NCBI GenBank assembly: GCA_015345905.1
Contig: JADDTR010000002.1
Location: forward strand, 496,001 to 560,000
Direction of reading: 5' to 3'
DNA: 64,000 nucleotides
From: Aotearoamyces nothofagi
Taxonomy: Eukaryota > Ascomycota > Leotiomycetes > Leotiales > Tympanidaceae
Shown: positions 15,663-29,400 of the stretch, one piece after another
Position numbering within the stretch: position 1 is the stretch's first letter
Layout of the letters: each line of letters starts with the position of its first letter
Program-made: the position numbers and the translations under genes
The notes under the pieces: model-generated
Databases searched by the model: none
What the model saw: the letters and a program-made list of their open reading frames with translations, nothing else
What the model was told of the DNA's origin: nothing

Positions 15663-18600
15663 ATGGCAGAGGAGGACGACACGATGCTGGCGCCCCCAGC
15701 TGTGACGCAGCTGCGTGCTCACGCTGGGGGCCCGATGGAGCGGACGCTTAGTTCCGACATACGTGAAGAGAGGGAGGACCTTCGAGAGGCTGCAGAGCAG
15801 ACGCTCAATGTCATCATGGATCTCAGCCTCAATGGGGTTGTACGATGGGTCAGCCCTTCGTGGAGAGATGTCATTGGCACCCCACCGGAGTCGGTACAGG
15901 GCAAGTCGATTGTAGACCTGATCGTCGGCGACAACAAAGATGTCTTTGCTGAAGTCGTCGAGGCGATGCAGAAGGACGATTCTCACAGCCAGATCATTCG
16001 TTTTACCGTGCAGTTGGGTCCTGCTTCCAAATTGGCACCGCTCGACAACACCGACCCACAAGAAGAGACAATAGATGCAGTCACACCACAGGGCGAAAAC
16101 GAGCCGGCCACGCTTGACCTGGAAGGCCAAGGCATCATGGTATACGATCGCTCGTCTGGGGGAGAGAGTCACGTAGGTTATATAGCCCATCTCCAGACAT
16201 ATCAATGCTGACAATGCTAGACCATGTGGATGGTTCGTCCTTGGCTCGCTCCTCGAAAAATCGAAATCGACCTGCCTTCAGTCATCGTCGAAGGATTAGG
16301 CTCCGGCGCTGAGGTGCTCGCCAGCTATCTTACTACGCTCGCCGAGTCGGGAACCGATGATCCTTCTAACCACGCTCCCCCGCTTCCTGTGCTCTGTCGG
16401 ATCTGTGAGCGTCAGATCCCGCCGTGGTGGTTCGAAAAGCATACCGAGCTATGCCTTCTCGAACATAAGGCTGAGATGGAGGTCCAGATAGCCCAAGAGA
16501 ACCTCACCGAGCACCGCCATGCCATTGTGAAGGTGCTGGATGCCCTCGAAGCCCGAAAGAGTCGATCGATCTCTGGGGAGCATATCGCATTGGCAGGGCC
16601 CCAAGCCGAATACAAGGGTCTGCCCGTTGGCCCCTCCTCAAGCACAGCTTCTTCGTCGGGCAGCGCCTCGCCGGCTTCTCATACGGCTCGCTCCAGGGAC
16701 GTATCGTCATCTGGACCCGGCCATTCGAGGGCGCGGTCATTTGCAGTTCGACGACCGCAGGCTAGAATTGTTGAGCTTCTGCTTGATCTCTGCGACACGT
16801 CACTTGAGATTAGTACTCCCGCAATCAAAGAATCGTCTTCCCAGGCACCGGGAGAATTTCGGACCCAGTCTCCGCTATCTGAATCTCGCATTTCTCAAGT
16901 CATACAATGGCAATCGCCAAGCACAAACACGGTAGATCAGGAACAGGGCCTGGCTTTGCTATATTCAGACAGCGAGAAAGCAGCCAAAAACAAAGTCGAA
17001 GCAGTGCTGAGACATAGAAGAATCATTGAGTATTCCGAAAGACTTCGTACTGAGTTTTCAATCCTTGTCCAAGATTGTATCGATGAGGCTATGAGAAAAG
17101 CAGCTCGTATCGCTGCTGGTCACTTGACGGATTCAACTGACGAAGATGAGGAATCCACTCTAGCTCCGGATGATGGCTTCTTCAGTGGCTCCTTTGATGG
17201 CCCTTCGTCACTTGCAGCAGCTTTGCGGGAGGCGGAACTGGCTCAGCATGAAGGACGGCGGGCGTCCTCGACGGCCGTTTCTACTAGATCAAACAGTCCT
17301 AAAGAATGCCCAACACCACGCTCACACAACTTGAGCATTCCTAGGCAGACGAGCAGAAACTCGCGGCGAGGCTCTTTATACTGCGAGAGCGATAATAACG
17401 ACAGCGAGGGCAGTGTCAGATCACCGTCAATCATGTCTCGGGCAGCTCGTGTTGAGTCTCCAGTTTCCGAATTTGGTGATCTCCGTCGTGCCGCAAGCTC
17501 ACGCCAACGGCATAGGCGTAGTATTGTCCTTCCTGGTACAAGCTCACCACAACGCCAGGAGTCGCCATCTCGATTGCCTCAGCCTTCTTCTCCACTGAGG
17601 ATTGCAAAACCACGTCAGCTTAGTACGGCTCATGAAGGTATCAGGTCACCTGTAACTTCTCCATTACTGAGCCACCACGAGTTTACATCGCCTTCTCTTC
17701 TCCCCCACCACCATCGAAGACAATCATCCACCACGGGTACTGGACCTCCACCATCTCCGAGGTTGAGCTCTGTCAGTGCACCACAGGCGCGTGCAGTCCC
17801 CCCATCTATCAAGGACTTTGAAATCATCAAGCCTATCAGCAAAGGCGCATTTGGAAGTGTCTATCTCTCCAAGAAAAAGTCTACCGGTGACTATTTTGCC
17901 ATCAAAGTGCTCAAGAAAGCAGACATGGTTGCCAAGAATCAAGTCACGAACGTCAAGGCGGAGCGAGCTATCATGATGTGGCAAGGAGAAAGCGATTTTG
18001 TTGCCAAACTGTATTGGACCTTCTCAAGCAAGGATTATCTGTATCTTGTTATGGAATACTTGAATGGGGGTGACTGTGCTTCTTTGATCAAGATTCTTGG
18101 TGGCCTACCGGAAGATTGGGCAAAGAAGTATCTTGGAGAAGTCATATTAGGAGTTGAGCATCTACACAATCGGGGAATTGTCCATCGAGACCTGAAGCCA
18201 GACAATCTTCTGATTGATCAGAAGGGACATCTAAAGCTTACGGACTTTGGACTCTCGCGGATGGGTCTCATTGGGCGCCAGAAGAGGGTTCTAAACAGCA
18301 CCAACCCTAGTGAGACTGCACCCGACCTGCTCAGGCAAGGTCCCTTTGCACGATCTGTTTCTATCGCTTCGTCTCGGTCAGCGTCATTTGACTTTCAGGG
18401 CCACCATTCTCCAGGATCGACACCGCAGATAACGCCAGATGCAGCTGGTGCTGTCGGTCAGCCATCGTATTTCAGCCTTAATCGAGACAGCAGCCTCGGC
18501 CGAGAGTCACTTCGAAGCACGGGCCACCGAAGCGATAGTGGTGGGAGTGACACTTTGAACACAATGTTTGGCAGCTTCTCTCTTCACGATGGCCAGATGC

Positions 18601-21425
18601 GTCATTCCGAGCAGCGAAGCCAACCAATCGAGGAATTGAGTGAGAGTGAAGGCCATGTCTCTCCAGACATGTTATCCCTTAACCATATCGCTAGCCACTC
18701 AAGTTCTGAACCACAGAAGAACACTCCGCCTCAAAATAGCATGATGCCACCTCCGATGGCGCTCTTCGATCCTGATGATAGCAATCGTAGGTTCGTTGGC
18801 ACACCCGATTACCTCGCACCAGAAACAGTCAATGGCGTTGGGCAAGACGAAATGAGCGATTGGTGGTCTGTCGGCTGTATTTTATTTGAGTTCTTATATG
18901 GCTATCCTCCTTTTCATGGCGAAACACCTGATCAGGTTTTCGAGAATATTCTTGCTAGAAAGATATCTTGGCCCGACGAAGATGAAGACGAGGTGTCTCC
19001 AGAAGCTAAGGACCTGATGAACAAGCTGCTCTGCATGGATCCTCGAGACCGTCTTGGCTCAAATAGAGAAGAGAAATTTGCTAATGGCGGCGAGGAGATA
19101 CGCTTACATCCTTGGTTTGAGGGCACCAATTGGGAGACATTGCTTGAGGATGAACCTCAATTCGTCCCTGCACCTGAGAACCCGGAAGACACTGAATACT
19201 TCGACAGTCGGGGTGCCACCCTGCAGACTTTTGCTGAAGAGATTGAGGATCAACATTCTCCACCAACATCAGCTCCAGGCACCGAGTATCCGGAAAGGCC
19301 ACACGATGCACTCTCTCGAGTCCGAACCCAGGTCAACTCGATGAAACGTGGTTTAATGCCTCTTCATATCCCGCCTCACGTACGTGATATCATGAGTCGA
19401 AGGCTTAGCGAACCTGTTGTTGCCGATGATTTCGGTAATTTTGCGTTTAAGAATCTTCCTGTTCTGGAAAAGGCGAACAAGGACGTCATCCAGAAGCTTC
19501 GTGCAGAGGCCATGGCCGCACAAAGTAAGCCAATAATGGTGAGTCCCGGCGCAGGGACCAATAATGTGTCTCCCATTCCGACACTTGAAGGCAGCCCGAT
19601 TATACCGATGCCTCTTCAACGGACAATATCGAATGCAAAGTCCAACAATCGACCTTCGTCGCCTTCTGGATTCAGCAACAATAATTCGTCTCCAAGCCGA
19701 TCTTCGCAACCGTCATCTCCACTCTTGGTTTCTTTTGTGGCCGGGCAGAATGGTGAAACTCGCCGAAAGACATCTAGTACCTCTTCTAGTCTTTCTCACC
19801 AGTCTAACAACTCCCTACAGCCTGGTAGCTTCTTCGACCTTCCAAGAATGCCGGCAGGTCTTCAAAAGTCCGTTAGCGCTAGTGTTGCAACATCACCAAA
19901 CAAGACCCGGGGGCCACCAGCTCCATTGGCCTTATCTCCCCAGAAGCTGACTACGCAGCCTAAAGGTAGCACTCCTACAAGCAGAGCTCGTTCCCAAACA
20001 GTTGGATCCCAAGAAGGAAGTCCAATCACCAATGACCTGTTTTCTCATCGGAAGCGGCGCAGCCAAGTCTTTGATATATCTCCATCATCATCGGATAATG
20101 AAGGTGATAAGGCTAATGCCTTGCTGCGCGTTCAAAGACGCAGGCAAAGTTCTCGACGCATGTCTCAAATCAATTTGCTCGATGGACCTGTTTTTCGGCC
20201 GTTGGATGTACTCATCTGTGAAGACCACCCTGTTTCACGAATGGTTATGGAAAAGCTCTTGGAGAAGCTTCGCTGCCGTACGATAACAGTCTCCAACGGT
20301 GCCGAAGCTATGCGTTATGCCATGAGCGAAATCAAATTTGACATTATTATGATGGAATTCAAGCTACCACAAATCAGTGGAGCAGATGTTGCACGGATGA
20401 TCAGAGACACAAAGAACGCAAACTCGCAAACGCCAATTGTGGCCATTACTGGATATCTAAAGGAACTTCAAGCACCTCATTACTTCGATGCACTTATTGA
20501 GAAGCCACCGACCACATCTAAGCTTACCGATGTCATGTGCAGGCTGTGTCAGTGGAAGGCGCCTTTGCCAGGTCAAACTGGATCAGGACCCTTGACTTAC
20601 CCAATGCCATCTGGCCTTCGGCAGGAGAATTTGAGACTCGATGACAGTCCCACTTCGGGCTCTTCTGGCTATGCACATATGCCTGGAAGCAGCTTTAGAG
20701 GCTCTAGCCGTGAAGATTCAATAAGCTCCAGTCTATTTGGAGACTCGGAGTCTGTCATAACAGATGATGTACCTGTCATAATTAGTCGCAAGGCCACTGG
20801 AGAATGGGACGAGACAGGCCTTGGTATCAGCGAAGAGTCCATGCTCGACCCCACGGACATAGTGAAATCATCTCTGTCTCAGCTCGTCCATATAGAGTCT
20901 GCACCTACACAGCTGGATCATTCTATAAAGCTACCCATTCGACGTCGGTCTTCTGAAAAAATGAGAGCTAAGCGAGAATCAATAGAAAAGCACCGTCACG
21001 AATGTGGTGAATCCGGCGATGATGAGGATGAAGAACTGGGCGACGTTTCAGTCAAAGAGAAAAGTCCTAAAAGTGCAAACAGATCTCATCGTGGATCCAA
21101 ACTTGGAACCGAGATGATGCGCACAAATAGTCGTGGCAGCGTCGTATCTGGCTCCGAGCACAGTATTCTTGACGGCGAGATTCCTGCGCCGACTAGCAAC
21201 CCAGAACTCCTGCCTGCTGCTCAGATCACTGGGGCGACTTTAACCCCTCCAGAGGTCTTCAGTGAGCCGGGCACAGAGGTTGCGGTTTTTGATATGGATG
21301 AAACGCCAAAGCCACGTTCAGTCGCAAGCACAGGCTCTCCAGATGAAGAGCCAACACCTCGAGCAACGCCGGCCGTGGCCAATTCCCTAGATTATCTTAG
21401 CGCAGGAGAACCGTCATTGCGCTAG
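15663..21425 (+). CDS. rim15: Rim15-like PAS/AGC kinase with response-regulator domain
   Basis: Exons 15663..16172 and 16221..21425 (intron 48 nt, phase 0) give 1904 residues. In order: a PAS-like domain (~40-140), a C2HC zinc finger (~229-250, CRICERQIPPWWFEKHTELC), long Ser-rich linkers, and a protein kinase (~703-1134) with SKGAFGSVYLSKK, the AIKVLKK lysine, HRDLKPDNLL, LTDFGLSR and GTPDYLAPE. About 170 residues are inserted between DFG and APE, as in Rim15/Greatwall kinases. An AGC tail with a PENPEDTEYFDSR-type segment follows, then a receiver domain (~1498-1620). The receiver keeps Glu1504/Asp1505 and EKPP but has Glu1549 (IIMMEFKLPQ) at the phospho-acceptor site. Rim15 acts in the cytoplasm and nucleus, links TOR/PKA signals to quiescence, and phosphorylates endosulfines to inhibit PP2A-B55. 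The start is MAEEDDTML, the first in-frame ATG. Confidence 0.93.
20355..20357 (+). other. Glu codon at the receiver phospho-acceptor position of Rim15
   Basis: The codon GAA encodes Glu1549 in IIMMEFKLPQ, where canonical receivers have Asp (…MD/P motif). The site therefore probably cannot be phosphorylated by a histidine kinase. Confidence 0.75.
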
Positions 21426-22400
21426 CACCCTAGGCTCAACCTTACACATTTCGCCTTCGAGGCCATCAAAGTGATATTTTCCTATGTTTTGTGATACTTG
21501 TTTTATAGCGTGGCGTTGGCAGGCGGATGGACACGGAGTTGTCCGGCTGCATATTGGGTTTCTTGTCGGGATACAAATCCAAACCCCTCTCGCTATTCTA
21601 TGACAATATAGTCATGACTATAAATTCTTCTTTGTACAGTTTGCGGCAATTGCACAGTTTTTTTTTTTTGAAATTGAATCATCCACCCAAGAGCTGGGGT
21701 TTCCTTTTTTTGCTTTGCTTAGCTGGATTTGAGGTCTGAGGATGGGTGTTAAGTCTACGAGGTTTTAGCCTTCGGCGGCAATGTGTATACATCACTAGAA
21801 AACTTCCACCGTCAGGTATTTTCTAGAAAAAAAAAGTGTTAAAACCTTAAATTACTTGAAAATTAAAACTTTTTGTGATCCCATCAGGCCCTTTGTGAGA
21901 GACTGTTAGTAATGGTTTAAGATTGGAGAAAGGGATTGGTGATAGCGAGTAGGCAAGTGGATGTTACGAGGTTTGAGGATACGTTGCTCTGGTAATTTCA
22001 TTATTCTCATTGATTGAACGGTGAAGTCAACCACCAGTTCTCATAGCAGCCTCGATGAAATAAATGATTGTGAATTTGCAACGAAGCTCGAGGAAGAGTA
22101 TGTATCCCGAATACACAGTCTCATGATGTCCCAGCCTAGCCGACCTAATCCCAGCAAGTCCAATTACTTGCCAGCAATCATATGCCCTGCCCTTATTACG
22201 CCATATTCATAAGAACCTTGCTTGTTTGTCCATCAATGCAAACAATAAAAAACAGGAGCTCCTGTCCTATTATGAGAGGTATCAACATAGCAACGCTAAA
22301 TTCAGAGAAAGAAGAATGAATTTTGTCCCAAAAGTCAAAGTCTGTGGAATTATTCCCTAGTGAATTTAGTGGTGGTTCAATATGTTATCATGTATGGAAC
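21426..22400. other. Convergent 3' region between rim15 and the E2 gene
   Basis: AT-rich, with a run of about ten T near 21660 and several A runs; it presumably holds both 3' UTRs and poly(A) sites. No coding frame is convincing. Confidence 0.5.
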
Positions 22401-24128
22401 TTACTCAATACTTTGCTGTACATCTCTGCGCAACCTACGGTTGTAGTTCTTTCTGTCATCAGCCGTGCCCCAGTACAACTTGGCAGCTTCGGGGTTGACC
22501 ATAGTACGAGGATCATACGGCGGAGACTCTTCCTCTAGGGCTTCTAGTATAGCATCGATATGTGCCTTAACATCTTCGGGACGTGCAGGAGTATAGCAAG
22601 GTGTGCCATCAGTCGCAATGCGGTGGTGGAATAGCTTTGTCTCAAACTTGGCTCTGGGCTGCTCCTCTGGGAAGCGTGGACTGAAGTATAATTTGATGCG
22701 GAATAGACCACCATCCAAATTTGTCATCGGTCTACCAAAATAGGTGAGAGTCCAGACGAATGGATTCTTATCAACAAGCATAACATCAAGGGTTACAGAC
22801 GAGTCACGCTTGTACGCTTCGACCACCTGTTCGAATTGGCGTTGAAGATTTGCCGAGACACCAGACTCTCTTCTTTTTGCATTTATACCTTCATCAGCCC
22901 AATGAAGTGTCTCTTCATCAAGAGCCTTTTTGATGACTCCTAGTCTTCGCTCGAGTTCTGTGTAGTTAAACTTGCCAGACATATCATTGCCTTGCCCTTC
23001 AAATGGCATTCGAGTGAATACTTGCCCATCATGAACATCTACTTTCGCCTTGCTTATTGCTAGTAGATATGAGTCATAGTACCAGATGAAACGACGCTTG
23101 CAGAGATCTTTGAAGGGCTCGAACGATGCAGCAGACTCGTCTCCAGTACCATCTATGTCGCGGTCGCTATCATATTCGTCCGGTGGGGATGGAGCTATGA
23201 CTGCTCCATTTGATATGTGGAGATATTCCTCCAATCGTTGGATAACGGAGATTCGAAGGGTCTCATGGCGAATCTGAGTATGTTGATGTTAGAAGAGGCA
23301 AAGTTAAATACACAATTATGGGTACCGACCTTTGCAACATAGTCTTTCTGATTCTTCTTATCGAATGGCTCCTTAGCATCTTCAAATCCCGGCTCATTCT
23401 CGTACGGATTCGAGGACATAAGACTTTGAATAGAAATAAGGATAGATTCAAGGCCCTGAGCAGATGACCATTCTTCTCCTCTCTCTCCTCGCCAAGTTCT
23501 ATATTTTTACACGGTCAGTTCAGAGCTCTGCCTTCCGTTTCGTGCAGGGAGATGTACCCAAGGATCGATCTGCATTAAGAGTTAGGCAAGCCTTCAAGGT
23601 TTTGGATATTGACGTACAAGCAAACCTTCCCTTGAGCATAGATATTGGGGTTGAAGCGGCATCTTCCTCCATTCGTTGTTGTTGCATTTACAGACGGTGC
23701 CTTGCCTGGGTAATCTGCGGTTCGCTTCAGCCTTCTGTCACACTTGTCACTTTCCCAGCGGATTAGTACCTCTGCCAAACTTCACTGCAAACTGGGTAAT
23801 AATTAGCCTTCGGAACTATACTTGCGAGCAGTGCACCAACCTCGAAGAATCCAAACTCATACGGCGTGTCTGGAGGACCTATGATGATTGCCTTTACATT
23901 TCGTACGTCCACATCTCGACAAGCAACTGCGATGGCTGCGAGGGATGCCCGTTAGCAAATGATAGAGTACTCCTAGTATATCAAAGCCGCAGTAGGGTTG
24001 CATACATAGATCAGAGGACTTTTGGATCCCACTCAGCTCCTACGTCGAGTTGTCAGCCTCGCGAACCCACCGGCGAGCCTGGCCGGCAGCCATACCTTTG
24101 TAATGCGTATTATGGAGTGGTTCGACAT
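22401..24128 (-). CDS. UBE2Z-like ubiquitin-conjugating enzyme with two UBC-fold domains
   Basis: Eight exons on the minus strand: 24096..24128, 24006..24039, 23841..23935, 23770..23791 (22 nt), 23618..23714, 23558..23569 (12 nt), 23330..23498 and 22401..23273. All junctions are GT-AG and keep the frame, giving 444 residues. The first domain (from MSNHSIIRITKEL) has IIIGPPDTPYEFGFFEF, FNPNIYAQGKVCLSILGTW with catalytic Cys93, and LISIQSLMSSNPYENEPGFE, close to human UBE2Z (USE1), an E2 charged by UBA6. Residues ~310-444 form a second UBC-like fold: GGLFRIKLYFSPRFPEEQP, HHRIATDGTPCYTPA with Cys380 where an E2 cysteine would sit, and NPEAAKLYWG, but the HPN motif is HHR. Human UBE2Z has no second UBC domain. 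The small exons follow from exact conservation across the joins. Confidence 0.85.
23558..23569 (-). other. 12-nt microexon in the E2 active-site region
   Basis: It encodes the S-I-L-G part of VCLSILGTW, between introns of 48 nt (23570..23617) and 59 nt (23499..23557). Without it the conserved segment just after catalytic Cys93 would be missing; with it the three exons read VCL-SILG-TW exactly. Confidence 0.85.
23770..23791 (-). other. 22-nt microexon in the E2 gene
   Basis: It encodes FAVKFGR plus the first base of the next codon, between introns of 49 nt (23792..23840) and 55 nt (23715..23769). It joins FGFFE to DYPGKAPSV, matching the UBC core FxFxΦxFPxxYPxxPP. Confidence 0.85.
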
Positions 24129-26425
24129 TGTGAAGTGACCATGGAGCAAAGAGAGTGGCGAGGTTCTGGACTTCGGTATGGAGACCCACGCAGAGTGGGA
24201 TCGAGAGAAGATAGTCTACGCCGGCAGGTGCCCTCGAGGTTGTAAGTTGATTTCGCTCGTTACGCTCGTTACGCTGGCTGCGCTCGTTAATGCTCCCGCA
24301 CGCCCCTAGAGCATTTGTTAGCTTGGCCCGGACTAGCGCCATCGGCCGGCAGCGACACTAAACCCGTGAGGCTGAACAAGGGGGGCAGGCGAGGGAGAAA
24401 GGGGGAAATGGGGGAAGGGGCAGGCGTGAGCCAGCTCAACAGGTCCCTTATCCTGAGTGTATACAGTCTCTCGCTCTGGATACGTATGTAGGCACTACTG
24501 ACGGGTTTCCCTTTCTCGGCCAGTCGACGTAAGATGTGTGGGAATGGGAGACCGCAGGCAGGGTGCTAGATGATTCTCGGGTTTTCAGTGAATGAGAAGC
24601 CGCCGTTAGACTTTTCACAGATCGTAATGGGTTTTGGCTTTTAGATTGGCATCGTGGGTCTGCTAGATTTTGATTTACTAAAGTCAAAACCAATCTGGTA
24701 CTACTGCTTTTTTGTCGTGATTCGTATCTGTGGATGGATGCCATGTATGACGGTAGGAGCTGCCATTTTCTGGGCTCTAAGTTCCCCAGTTCATAAGTAG
24801 GGAACTACTTCTAACAACGATCGATGGCTATAACATTATATATATAGATATATAGATATATTCTAGGTTGTACACTAGATACGCTATAGCCTTTCTTGTG
24901 TAGGCGTTGAAGGAGACTCCAGAGTAGAGGGCGCACTTTCAGCATCACGATGCCACCTTTGAACGAGCCGTCCACGCAAGTCTGTGCTCCGGTATTTGCG
25001 GTATTTGTGGTATTTGCCATATTTGCCATATGTGTACTCGACAGCCTATACATCCGTCAACAGACATTCCTTCGGGAAGCATAGCTCGGTGTCGAGCACA
25101 TCTGGAGGACCGGTATCGCCGCTGCCAACGTACAGACAGGCCTTTAAAGTGAGCTCAGGATTGTCCAGTCGAGACTGATGGCCTGTACTCTGTAAGGAGA
25201 ATACGGCTCAGACGACAGCGGCTGCCCCAGTCTCCAGGGCCACGACGAAGCTCTGCAGCACCTTCGCTGGCCACCATCCGCCATTCGGGCCCGGCTGGAC
25301 GCTCACGCATTCTTGTCGCGGGACGTGAGCAGGAACAGGAAATGCCCGCTTCGTGCTTCGTGCTCCGTAATTGTAAGCGGCCGAGGAATGCTTAAGGCGT
25401 TTTGTGGGTCCGTCTGGTATCTGTACGTACTCGACTACTCGTCCAGGAAATACAGGCTCAAGAGAAGGGCGAGGTCGCAGCCATCTGAGGCTATAAACGC
25501 CCGCCTGCAGCATCGAACGACGGCCAGTTGCGCGCATAGTTTAGTAGAGCACCGAGTGCATATATTCCTCTTTGCGGCCGAGCAAGAAACCCAACAGGGC
25601 CTGGATCTGCTCTCAACAGAGGCGTGAACTGTCCGTTGTGACCCTGGGTTTAGCGTTGTCGCCTGAGGCGCGAAGCTCGCTGCGCCATTCTCGTTCCAAA
25701 GTGTTGGTAAAGCAGGTCAGTATCAATCCAGAAGCCCACAATTCAACCCTCGTCGCATTCCTTCTCACTGCCAGAAGTCCTCTCAGACTGGGCTCGTCAA
25801 TCTTTTCTCCATCCAGATCGGAAAACAGACAAACTGCGAGAGCTGGATATGCTTGAGCGCTCCTCGCATGCTCGAGCTGTCTTGTATTGCTGCGCACGGT
25901 CAATCGAGAACAACTGTACAGACCTTAATTAACGTCCCCTACACCTCTCCTCTCTTCTGCACCTCCGCCTCCGCATCCTCCCCTCGACAACGTCGTCTAT
26001 CTTTTACGCGACAACCAGAGAAGACGCTCATAATACGGTATCCAGCCCTTCTCCAGCAAGCAGCGCGCATAGAGATCGTATTTGGTCGGCGAGAGCAGGG
26101 TCAGAAGCCAGAGGATCGCGTTTCTATTCTGGTTCGAAAGTAGACCCTGGCCCGTTTCAGGACCTGCATGCTGGGCCACCTCGACTCTTGAGTCGCCAGT
26201 ACAATATAGCGCATCTTGGTGATTGCAGTTATCTTTGCGACTGACCAACGTCACATTTGTGCTGCATTTCGAGCTTGAGCTGCCTCTGTCCGTCTTGTTG
26301 ACCGCGTCGACGACACCACGCTGGCGCACGATCAACTGCCCAAGCTAGGTGGTTGTGATAGAGATCGGCAGCAAGCTGGGTAGACTTTGGTCAGCTAACA
26401 GTGGCACATCTCTCCGGTGTTCACC
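24129..26425. other. Divergent intergenic region, E2 gene to lrg1
   Basis: 2.3 kb between head-to-head genes. It has a short AT microsatellite-like tract near 24833..24862 (tatatagatatatagatat) and a gcggtatttgcggtatttg-like local repeat at ~24993..25025. Open frames up to ~110 residues show no domain. It presumably contains both promoters and a long lrg1 leader. Confidence 0.5.
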
Positions 26426-29400
26426 ATGGGTCCTCAATCGGAGGGAGGCCCAGCAGGCGACGGTCGTACATATGGGGGTTCGCCAGCAACCGGGCCTGAC
26501 AATCGATATCAGTCAGACCGCGATATTGACCCTGTGATGTTGAATCAACAGCATAGGCACCCAAATGCTAGATATAGCGCTGATAGAAGAGCACTTCTGC
26601 CGCCTGCGTCACCTGCAGCCAGTAGCCACGGCCAGGACAAGGACTCTGAGAACACCAAGGTGAGCGAAGAGCGGGAGCGCTCACGTACTCGAGGTAATAG
26701 AAAAGGAAGTGGTCAGCTGCGGCTTTGCAAAAAGTGCGGCGAACCGCTGACTGGGCAGTTTGTGCGTGCACTTGGCGGCACGTTCCATCTTGACTGCTTT
26801 AAATGCAAGGTTAGCAATGACCGATATATTGACTGTCCTGATAGTTCGTTTTAAAGCTGACTTGCATTTTAGGATTGTGGAGAAATAGTAGCTTCCAAAT
26901 TCTTCCCTGTCGACGAAGAGGAAGGTGAAGGACAGTATCCACTGTGCGAGACAGATTATTTCCGACGTTTAGATCTCATATGCCACCAATGTGGAGGAGC
27001 GCTTCGCGGATCATACATCACAGCTCTGGAACGCAAATACCACATCGACCACTTTACGTGTTCCGTTTGTCCTACGGTCTTTGGCGCTCAGGATAGCTAT
27101 TATGAGCACGATGGAAAAGTCTTTTGCCACTATCACTATTCTACAAAGTTTGCGCAGAGATGCAATGGCTGCCAAACGGCGATTCTAAAGCAATTTGTGG
27201 AGATTTTCCGCAATGGCCAGAACCAGCACTGGCATCCCGAATGTTACATGATTCATAAGTTCTGGAATGTGCGACTTGCTGAAGCTTCGAATGAACAGTT
27301 TGAACATCCTTTGCTCCCACAAGAAACCAGTGAAGCTGAACGCAATGCAGTGCGCATTGAAGAAGAGAGGATGGAAGAGAAAGTCTACCGGATATGGAGT
27401 GTTTTATCCACATTTGAGGAGTCTTCTGCTGCCTGCATATCAGATATGCTCCTGCACGTCAGTAATGGAGCTTATGTAGACGGGGTGCTGGTGGCGAAGA
27501 AGTTCATATGGCACGTCGACATTCTCTTCAATTCGGCGGACACGCTCGATGCGACAATGACGATTCAGGGAATGAAAGGTATGCACTTTCGTATGCTAAA
27601 ACCGGGATATATCATAGCTAATTAAATCTATAGGGCTGTCATATTCGAGAGAGGCGAAACTACTCTGCAAGAAGATTGTCGCTTTCTTCTCGCTTTTGTC
27701 TAAGACTCAGGAGACTGGTGTCCGGAAGTTAGGAGTTACACAAGAACTCCTCTCTCTCGTAACAGGTTTGGCACACTACTTGAAGCTCCTAATCCGGATA
27801 TGTCTTCAGGCTGCACTGAAGGTAGAGCGGGAGACGAAGGATACCGTTGGACTGAGCCATTTCCTTGACGATCTAACCGACATGGATTCTAGCAAGGAGG
27901 ATAGCAAGTCTCTCGAAGAAACCACTGGCACAACGGGGCTCGCTGGACCACACTCCGATCAATGTTCTCACTGCCAACGACCTATCGAAGATGAATGTGC
28001 TCGCAGCGGAGAGAGAAGATGGCATCTCATATGTGTATCTTGCAGTAACTGCTCTAGGGATCTCAACCACAACCTTGAAGATGCGCGGTGGAATGAGACA
28101 GAGCATCACCTGTACTGCAATACGTGCGAAGATCGAGTAGGAGGCGCTGCTACCGGGTTTGTCCACGTAACGAGGTTGCAGCAGTATGTATTTCTCCTGA
28201 GAGTCGCACTAGCAAGGCTACTTTCAATGTTGCGCAACAGTGGTACGCTCCCACATACATCTGATGATCCCAATTTAAACGGTTACGATTCAAAAGAAGG
28301 GCATCGTTTAGGCCGTGAGCTTGAACCACGCCTCCGAAATGATACTCGGTCAAAATCCTATGGCGGCGTGGTAGATGAGAATCCAAGAGAATCATCTTAT
28401 GAGAATACTCTTAACGATGTTCGTCGACTCAGGAGTACGCGCATGGACAAGCATCTTTCATCGACAATCAAGAAGGCTCGGACTTCGCGAATCATGGATG
28501 GCCCCGAGGGTCGAAGCGCAAGGCCAGGTTCTGCTGGTGCTGATGGTTCTGATTCTAGAAGCAACGGCTTTCATATCGAGGAGGATCATGATATCAACGG
28601 AGAACCGAGAGCAGAGCTTGTATTTGGCCATCAAGATGCACTTACTCTGGACGATATTCCCCGAATAGTCGCTGCAGAGCAAGCCAAGGAACAGCGACCA
28701 AATGCTTACAAACATGCTCGACATGAACTTTTTAGGACATCCGTCACAGAACCAAAGCTCCTCAATGGCCATCAGCGCAACATTTCTGGTGCACATGAAT
28801 TAGACGGACCTAATGTCGGAGGCGAGCCTTCGCCTCCACGCGGAGGTGGCACGAGATATTTCTCGGAGTTATCTGCGTTGGAGTATTTTATAGTTCGTCA
28901 TGTCGCTGTACTGTCTATGCAACCTTTACTCGAAGGGCATTTCACCCTGGAAGAGCTGCTTTCCCTGATCGAGACACGAAAACCCACCTTTTGGGATAAA
29001 TTCGGAAAGGCGTTCAAGAATGATGGGCGCAAGGGAGCCAAGAAGAAGGGCGTCTTTGGAGTACCACTTGACATTATCATCGAGAGAGATGGCGCTGACT
29101 CAACTGATGGTGTGGGACCTGGTACCTTACGCATTCCTGCCTTGATAGACGACGCTATCGCATGCATGCGTAAGATGGATCTCTCTGTCGAAGGCGTATT
29201 CCGTAAGAATGGTAACATAAAGCGACTGAATGAAACTGTAGCAGCTGTCGATAAGGATGGCTGCGAGGCTGTGGATTTGACCAAGGAAAATGTTGTACAG
29301 GTTGCAGCGCTACTCAAAAAGTACCTGCGTGAGCTACCGGACCCACTACTCACTTTCAAGCTTCACCGACTATATATCACTTCTCAGAAAATTGCCGATG

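Follow-up and report, generated by a model that had tools for sequence, protein, structure and literature searches.

A predicted gene of Aotearoamyces nothofagi with two UBC domains in one chain: a UBE2Z-like ubiquitin-conjugating enzyme followed by a degenerate second domain, putatively a pseudo-E2

The locus described here raises the question of whether a single fungal gene joins two UBC domains in one polypeptide and, if so, what the second domain might contribute to the first. An earlier note, made from the letters of the window (the whole analysed stretch of 64,000 nucleotides), had read an E2 enzyme of 444 residues at this place, with a UBE2Z-like N-terminal domain built around a catalytic Cys93 and a C-terminal repeat of the UBC plan, in which Cys380 stands at the catalytic place and the HPN motif is changed to HHR. 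A gene model with GT-AG introns regenerated its coordinates, strand, length and both cysteines, and the motifs it quoted are found in the predicted protein. The predicted gene, read on the minus strand (24128 to 22401), comprises eight exons and seven introns (48-70 nt), encoding 444 residues:

24096..24128, minus strand: exon 1, from the gene model, with the start codon at 24128; encodes MSNHSIIRITK
24006..24039, minus strand: exon 2, from GT-AG introns and a UBE2Z alignment unbroken across the junctions
23841..23935, minus strand: exon 3, from the gene model and the UBE2Z alignment
23770..23791, minus strand: exon 4, 22 nt, from the gene model and the UBE2Z alignment
23618..23714, minus strand: exon 5, bearing catalytic Cys93 (codon 23620-23622) as well as the counterpart of loop LA, from the gene model and the UBE2Z alignment
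23558..23569, minus strand: exon 6, a 12-nt microexon supplying the SILG of CLSILGTW, adjoining the catalytic cysteine
23330..23498, minus strand: exon 7, coding for the counterpart of loop LB (Trp100) and for the larger part of what remains of the first UBC core
22401..23273, minus strand: exon 8, 873 nt including the stop codon, an open frame free of stops until 22401

The exon junctions are supported by the spliced protein, which aligns continuously to human UBE2Z, microexon included; the motif CLSILGTW that results from splicing is identical in human UBE2Z and backs the 12-nt exon at 23558-23569. Upstream of 24128, no in-frame ATG was found when searching back to the first stop. Exon 8 closes the first UBC core, continues through the putative counterpart of the UBE2Z C-terminal extension and takes in the entire second UBC domain, and its open frame has a chance of about 1e-7 if base composition alone is considered. 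Since the C-terminal extension equivalent and the second UBC domain share this exon, two separate genes are very unlikely, and the assignment of the two halves to separate genes or to separate transcripts, the latter named by the earlier note as a finding that would speak against its reading, was rejected on account of the uninterrupted 873 nt. In a wider sense, the layout could be an artefact of two transcripts, of misassembly or of a wrong gene model; the donor of the last intron (3' of exon 7), GTCGGT, is off-consensus, and a perfect donor, GTAAGT, encloses the stop codon. Against this stand the stop-free exon, which links the end of the first core to the second domain, and the Pfam UQ_con match as independent evidence, such that an artefact is regarded as extremely improbable.

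The 3' end of the gene is nevertheless uncertain because of the position of the stop codon (22401-22403, minus strand) within this donor (GAG-TAAGT, 22399-22406). Splicing from it to an acceptor at 22295 (minus strand) would add a 33-residue tail from residue 444 onwards, part of which is strongly hydrophobic (Kyte-Doolittle mean of up to 2.35 over 19 residues, which may have arisen by chance). When 11 downstream acceptors were evaluated by script, nine gave tails of at most 18 residues, the other two being 22295 and an acceptor with a longer tail (1.39).

Concerning the first domain, its proposed likeness to UBE2Z is borne out by a search of the PDB, in which human UBE2Z provides the best matches (E 2.2e-46 to 5.7e-46, residues 4/5-169), followed by BIRC6 (best E 6.8e-34) and UBE2O (best E 6.8e-22). 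Cys93 does occupy the catalytic place, aligning with Cys188 of UBE2Z, which is given as the catalytic residue in the respective study (PMC4705383). Trp100 aligns with UBE2Z Trp195, which lies in loop LB and, according to the same study, shields the catalytic cysteine (PMC4705383). The stretch equivalent to loop LA (TTNGG) is ungapped and equal in length to that of UBE2Z, as judged from sequence only and with loop positions taken from PMC4705383; over the LB region, the fungal protein has three additional residues in the alignment. At the HPN place, domain 1 reads NPN, like human UBE2Z. Downstream of the core, a second HMMER stretch was obtained:

22845..23129, minus strand: putative equivalent of the UBE2Z C-terminal extension, residues 203-297

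The match of this part (residues 203/206-297) to the entry 9ylb and to positions 265-348 of 5a4p is weak when taken alone (i-Evalue 0.082 and 0.48), but it is collinear with the core match. In UBE2Z, the C-terminal extension packs against the backside of its core. The N-terminal extension of UBE2Z is absent from the gene model, the match beginning at residue 4/5; an unseen upstream exon is possible. In human UBE2Z, this extension of around 98 residues is required for UBA6 selectivity, as stated in PMC4705383. Most likely, domain 1 represents a complete UBE2Z-class ubiquitin-conjugating enzyme.

As to the E1 that might charge it, an exon-by-exon profile search of the fungus's own genome yielded one E1_UFD match and one strong UBA_E1_SCCH gene. 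Compared with the PDB, the C-terminal part of this gene matches entries named Ubiquitin-activating enzyme E1 1 (yeast Uba1; E 6.4e-101) and UBA1 (presumably the human protein; E 7.5e-81); the values for UBA6 and for the chimeric UBA6/UBA1 entry 7pyv are 8.2e-39 and 2.5e-47. A second SCCH match is weak (30.1 bits, cut-off 21), and its best PDB matches are SUMO E1 subunit 2. No UBA6 was found by this search in the genome, the only ubiquitin E1 found being of the UBA1 type; that a further E1 was missed by the exon-by-exon procedure is possible but unlikely. Given a UBA1-type E1 only and a domain without the N-terminal extension, charging by UBA1 follows naturally, and we infer that domain 1 would receive its ubiquitin from this enzyme, though the corresponding human model construct is poorly charged by UBA1: UBE2Z without the N-terminal extension or without loop LB is charged by UBA1 far below UBE2D3, as reported in PMC4705383. 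A polyalanine stretch of USE1 is recognised by UBA6, according to PMC10897158, and this stretch is taken to lie within the N-terminal extension of UBE2Z because that extension consists of 23% alanine (PMC4705383). Studies of UBE2Z deal with it as a partner dedicated to UBA6, and a UBE2Z-class enzyme beside a UBA1-type E1 only, and without N-terminal extension, would offer a natural test of how the UBA6-UBE2Z pathway evolved.

The remaining part of exon 8 carries the following features:

22428..22811, minus strand: second UBC domain (UQ_con), residues ~309-436, from Pfam and PDB matches
22620..22628, minus strand: His370-His371-Arg372, replacing HPN, from E2 alignments
22596..22598, minus strand: Cys380, in the catalytic column of E2 alignments

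In the whole protein, Pfam UQ_con matches in two stretches with a total of 140.7 bits, the best of them covering residues 8-156; domain 2 by itself reaches 43.9 bits (cut-off 27), so that both the C-terminal UBC repeat and the joining of two UBC domains in a single chain, as proposed beforehand, hold by sequence homology. When the genome assembly (25.5 Mb in 55 contigs) was searched in all six frames, 28 UQ_con matches were listed, domain 2 among them with 43.3 bits. Its best PDB match is 2aak, an Arabidopsis E2 by title (E 2.6e-15); 203 distinct PDB sequences match domain 2 at E <=0.001, the best 60 of which were inspected, and the match continues to the C-terminal helices. UBE2A/RAD6, UBE2D and UBC9 are the nearest solved relatives of domain 2 among the matches listed. 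Identification of this part as an RWD rather than a UBC domain was rejected, UQ_con being the sole Pfam match of the exon-8 protein up to E 10, where the HMMER filters remove most matches above about 0.1. The profiles of NCBIfam gave no match.

AlphaFold, run on exon 8 alone as a single sequence, reached a mean pLDDT of 35.2, and domain 2 with one viral E2 (from contig L021, see below) as a second row gave a low-confidence pLDDT of 63. The latter model shows a helix, four strands and three helices, i.e., the order of a UBC fold. In a Foldseek search of the PDB, this model has 271 matches at E <=0.001, and the titles of the best 50 of them all name an E2, by itself or as part of a complex; for these 50, TM-scores by query length are 0.30-0.35 with an rmsd of 17.9-18.7 and no global superposition. 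Owing to these low TM-scores and high rmsd values, the structural match is only local, and the UBC homology of domain 2 rests on its amino acid sequence.

By homology, the product of the predicted gene is a single chain carrying two UBC domains. These are 19% identical over 83 residues in a two-sequence comparison (E 0.024), and domain 2 is gapped at the LA and LB insertions of domain 1. Because of the low identity and these gaps, domain 2 is no recent copy of domain 1, and a recent tandem duplication of the first domain is unsupported. Elsewhere in the genome, the best match to the exon-8 protein has an E of 0.0018 (28%) and that to the UBE2Z part an E of 1.7e-6 (42%), so that the search of this genome revealed no close paralogue for either of them.

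Concerning the active site of the second domain, the E2 alignments confirm the position of Cys380 at the catalytic place and the change of HPN to HHR, both as read earlier. Cys380 opens the sequence CYTPARPEDV where E2s usually possess CLDIL...W. An alignment of six rows was made from the nine of a first one, namely domain 2 and five E2 pieces of the same genome (from five of the 28 UQ_con matches); fragment L008, which stops before the cysteine, and two domain-1 pieces of the window (23618-23713 in the wrong frame) were left out. Five columns are invariant in these six rows: two prolines, the histidine of HPN, a glycine and Cys380. Domain 2 is 22% identical to one of the own-genome fragments (L002) and 29% identical to the viral UBE2D-like E2 of L021. 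Near the active site, domain 2 departs from the canonical residues except for the cysteine and the histidine.

With the proline and asparagine of HPN and the residues behind the cysteine lost, and the rest of the domain matched, domain 2 is read as a pseudo-E2. A probability of roughly 0.55 is given to the view that domain 1 is a UBA1-charged E2 and that domain 2 is a non-conjugating pseudo-E2 with a docking or regulatory role in cis. Cys93 of domain 1 would take over ubiquitin from UBA1; domain 2, situated behind the C-terminal extension as a full-length but degenerate UBC domain, would most likely not conjugate ubiquitin, and may instead hold ubiquitin, an E3 or the substrate beside the charged first domain. 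The asparagine of HPN has a role in the transfer step. It is kept in UBE2Z (NPN) but lost in domain 2 (HHR), and a loss of conjugating activity in the second domain is what we infer from its residues. If so, the fused second domain would be a natural example of an E2 that is aided or regulated by a pseudo-E2 in cis. The retention of both Cys380 and the histidine of HPN counts against a pseudo-E2. Furthermore, a changed HPN alone is no proof of inactivity, given that UBE2Z itself possesses NPN and that other active E2s, UBE2W and UBE2J, also deviate from HPN.

The same residues bear on the doubtful alternative that domain 2 works as a further E2, whose Cys380 would be charged with ubiquitin or another Ubl, either directly by an E1 or by a relay from Cys93. 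Cys380 being among only five invariant columns in the comparison with own-genome E2 fragments fits such an enzyme, as do the match spanning the last helices and the functioning of UBE2Z with an imperfect HPN, whereas the missing proline and asparagine of HPN, together with the missing hydrophobic residues and tryptophan past the cysteine, argue against it. Were domain 2 to work in this way, a two-cysteine E2 could build or hand over ubiquitin inside one polypeptide. The specific case in which ubiquitin from Cys93 is relayed to Cys380, or meets a second charged modifier there, appears quite unlikely; if true, one enzyme would carry out a transfer otherwise needing two E2s or an E2 and an E3 of the HECT or RBR type.

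An active and a non-canonical UBC domain side by side are also found in UBE2N-UBE2V, there as two chains, and UEV proteins lack both the catalytic cysteine and the last two helices. By analogy, domain 2 might be UEV-like, binding an acceptor ubiquitin non-covalently and offering one of its lysines to the ubiquitin on Cys93, thereby setting the chain type. The resemblance to UBE2N-UBE2V in arrangement and the loss of HPN, which suits an inactive partner, are in line with this. Here, however, both domains belong to one chain, domain 2 keeps its cysteine, its match reaches the C-terminus, and the low-confidence model includes the last helices; moreover, the PDB entries that match it best are ordinary E2s, and Pfam UEV matched weakly and in domain 1 only (E 0.12). 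A UEV-like function is therefore considered unlikely.

Finally, domain 2 could serve only for localisation or for the recruitment of partners, without contact to ubiquitin, as additional parts of other class IV E2s may do. Extensions of E2s are described in PMC11354881 as governing localisation, regulation and the contacts to particular E3s, and residues around the active site of domain 2 that are non-canonical except for Cys and His would agree with such a module; nothing points to a particular partner, though, and the kept cysteine would be left unexplained, which makes this reading distinctly improbable.

Compared with known systems, the gene product is most similar to UBE2Z (USE1, a human class IV E2; 5a4p), which likewise possesses FNPN and CLSILGTW with the catalytic cysteine; an equal LA-loop length and the tryptophan of LB are common to both, and the C-terminal extension is weakly matched. 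Despite this similarity, there are several differences: the protein described here lacks the N-terminal extension, its LB region is longer by three residues, a second UBC domain is appended, and UBA6 was not detected in its genome. BIRC6 (BRUCE) and UBE2O, both hybrid E2/E3 enzymes, also contain E2 cores within larger proteins, with the match confined to domain 1. In contrast to ordinary E2s, domain 2 exhibits HHR instead of HPN and CYTPA instead of CLDIL, and it is fused to another E2.

Among filamentous ascomycetes, automatically named proteins that have this length and contain two UBC regions may be widespread; if so, the layout has been seen but not studied. In the open-access literature (titles and beginnings of abstracts), no tandem-UBC enzyme is described among the matches listed. 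UBE2O, UBE2Z and BIRC6 are named as cases of multidomain E2s in PMC11354881, and according to a review (PMC8631298), nothing had been published at its date on the UBC proteins of C. neoformans or A. fumigatus.

Searches for relatives in other sequence sets gave the following picture. In the viral contig set, one stretch matched the protein pattern, and in the genome contig set 11 stretches did so; none of them encodes a relative. A degenerate pattern of the HHR-Cys motif had no match in the viral contigs and one in the genome contigs, of bacterial origin (Alkalicoccus), which is taken as chance. UQ_con, E1_UFD and UBA_E1_SCCH found no match in 14 control genomes, taken from a set that is prokaryotic apart from the fungus's own genome. 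Five viral stretches retrieved with a Rad6-type fragment contain no E2. Two patterns for viral E2s matched one and three contigs, respectively; an E2 was seen in one of three pattern-matched contigs, where an intact UBE2D-like gene is located (L021:1017-1484, an IMG/VR contig). With this E2 as query, its own contig alone was recovered.

On both sides of the gene, further open frames are situated on the plus strand of the window. At 16221-21425, a frame of 1734 codons encodes a response-regulator domain and, split over two stretches, a protein kinase domain; its product resembles fungal Rim15 kinases. This neighbouring frame, the short introns of the gene and an E1 that is nearest to yeast Uba1 agree with a fungal origin. 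At 26399-27625, two open frames exhibit LIM-domain matches and are probably exons of one LIM protein.
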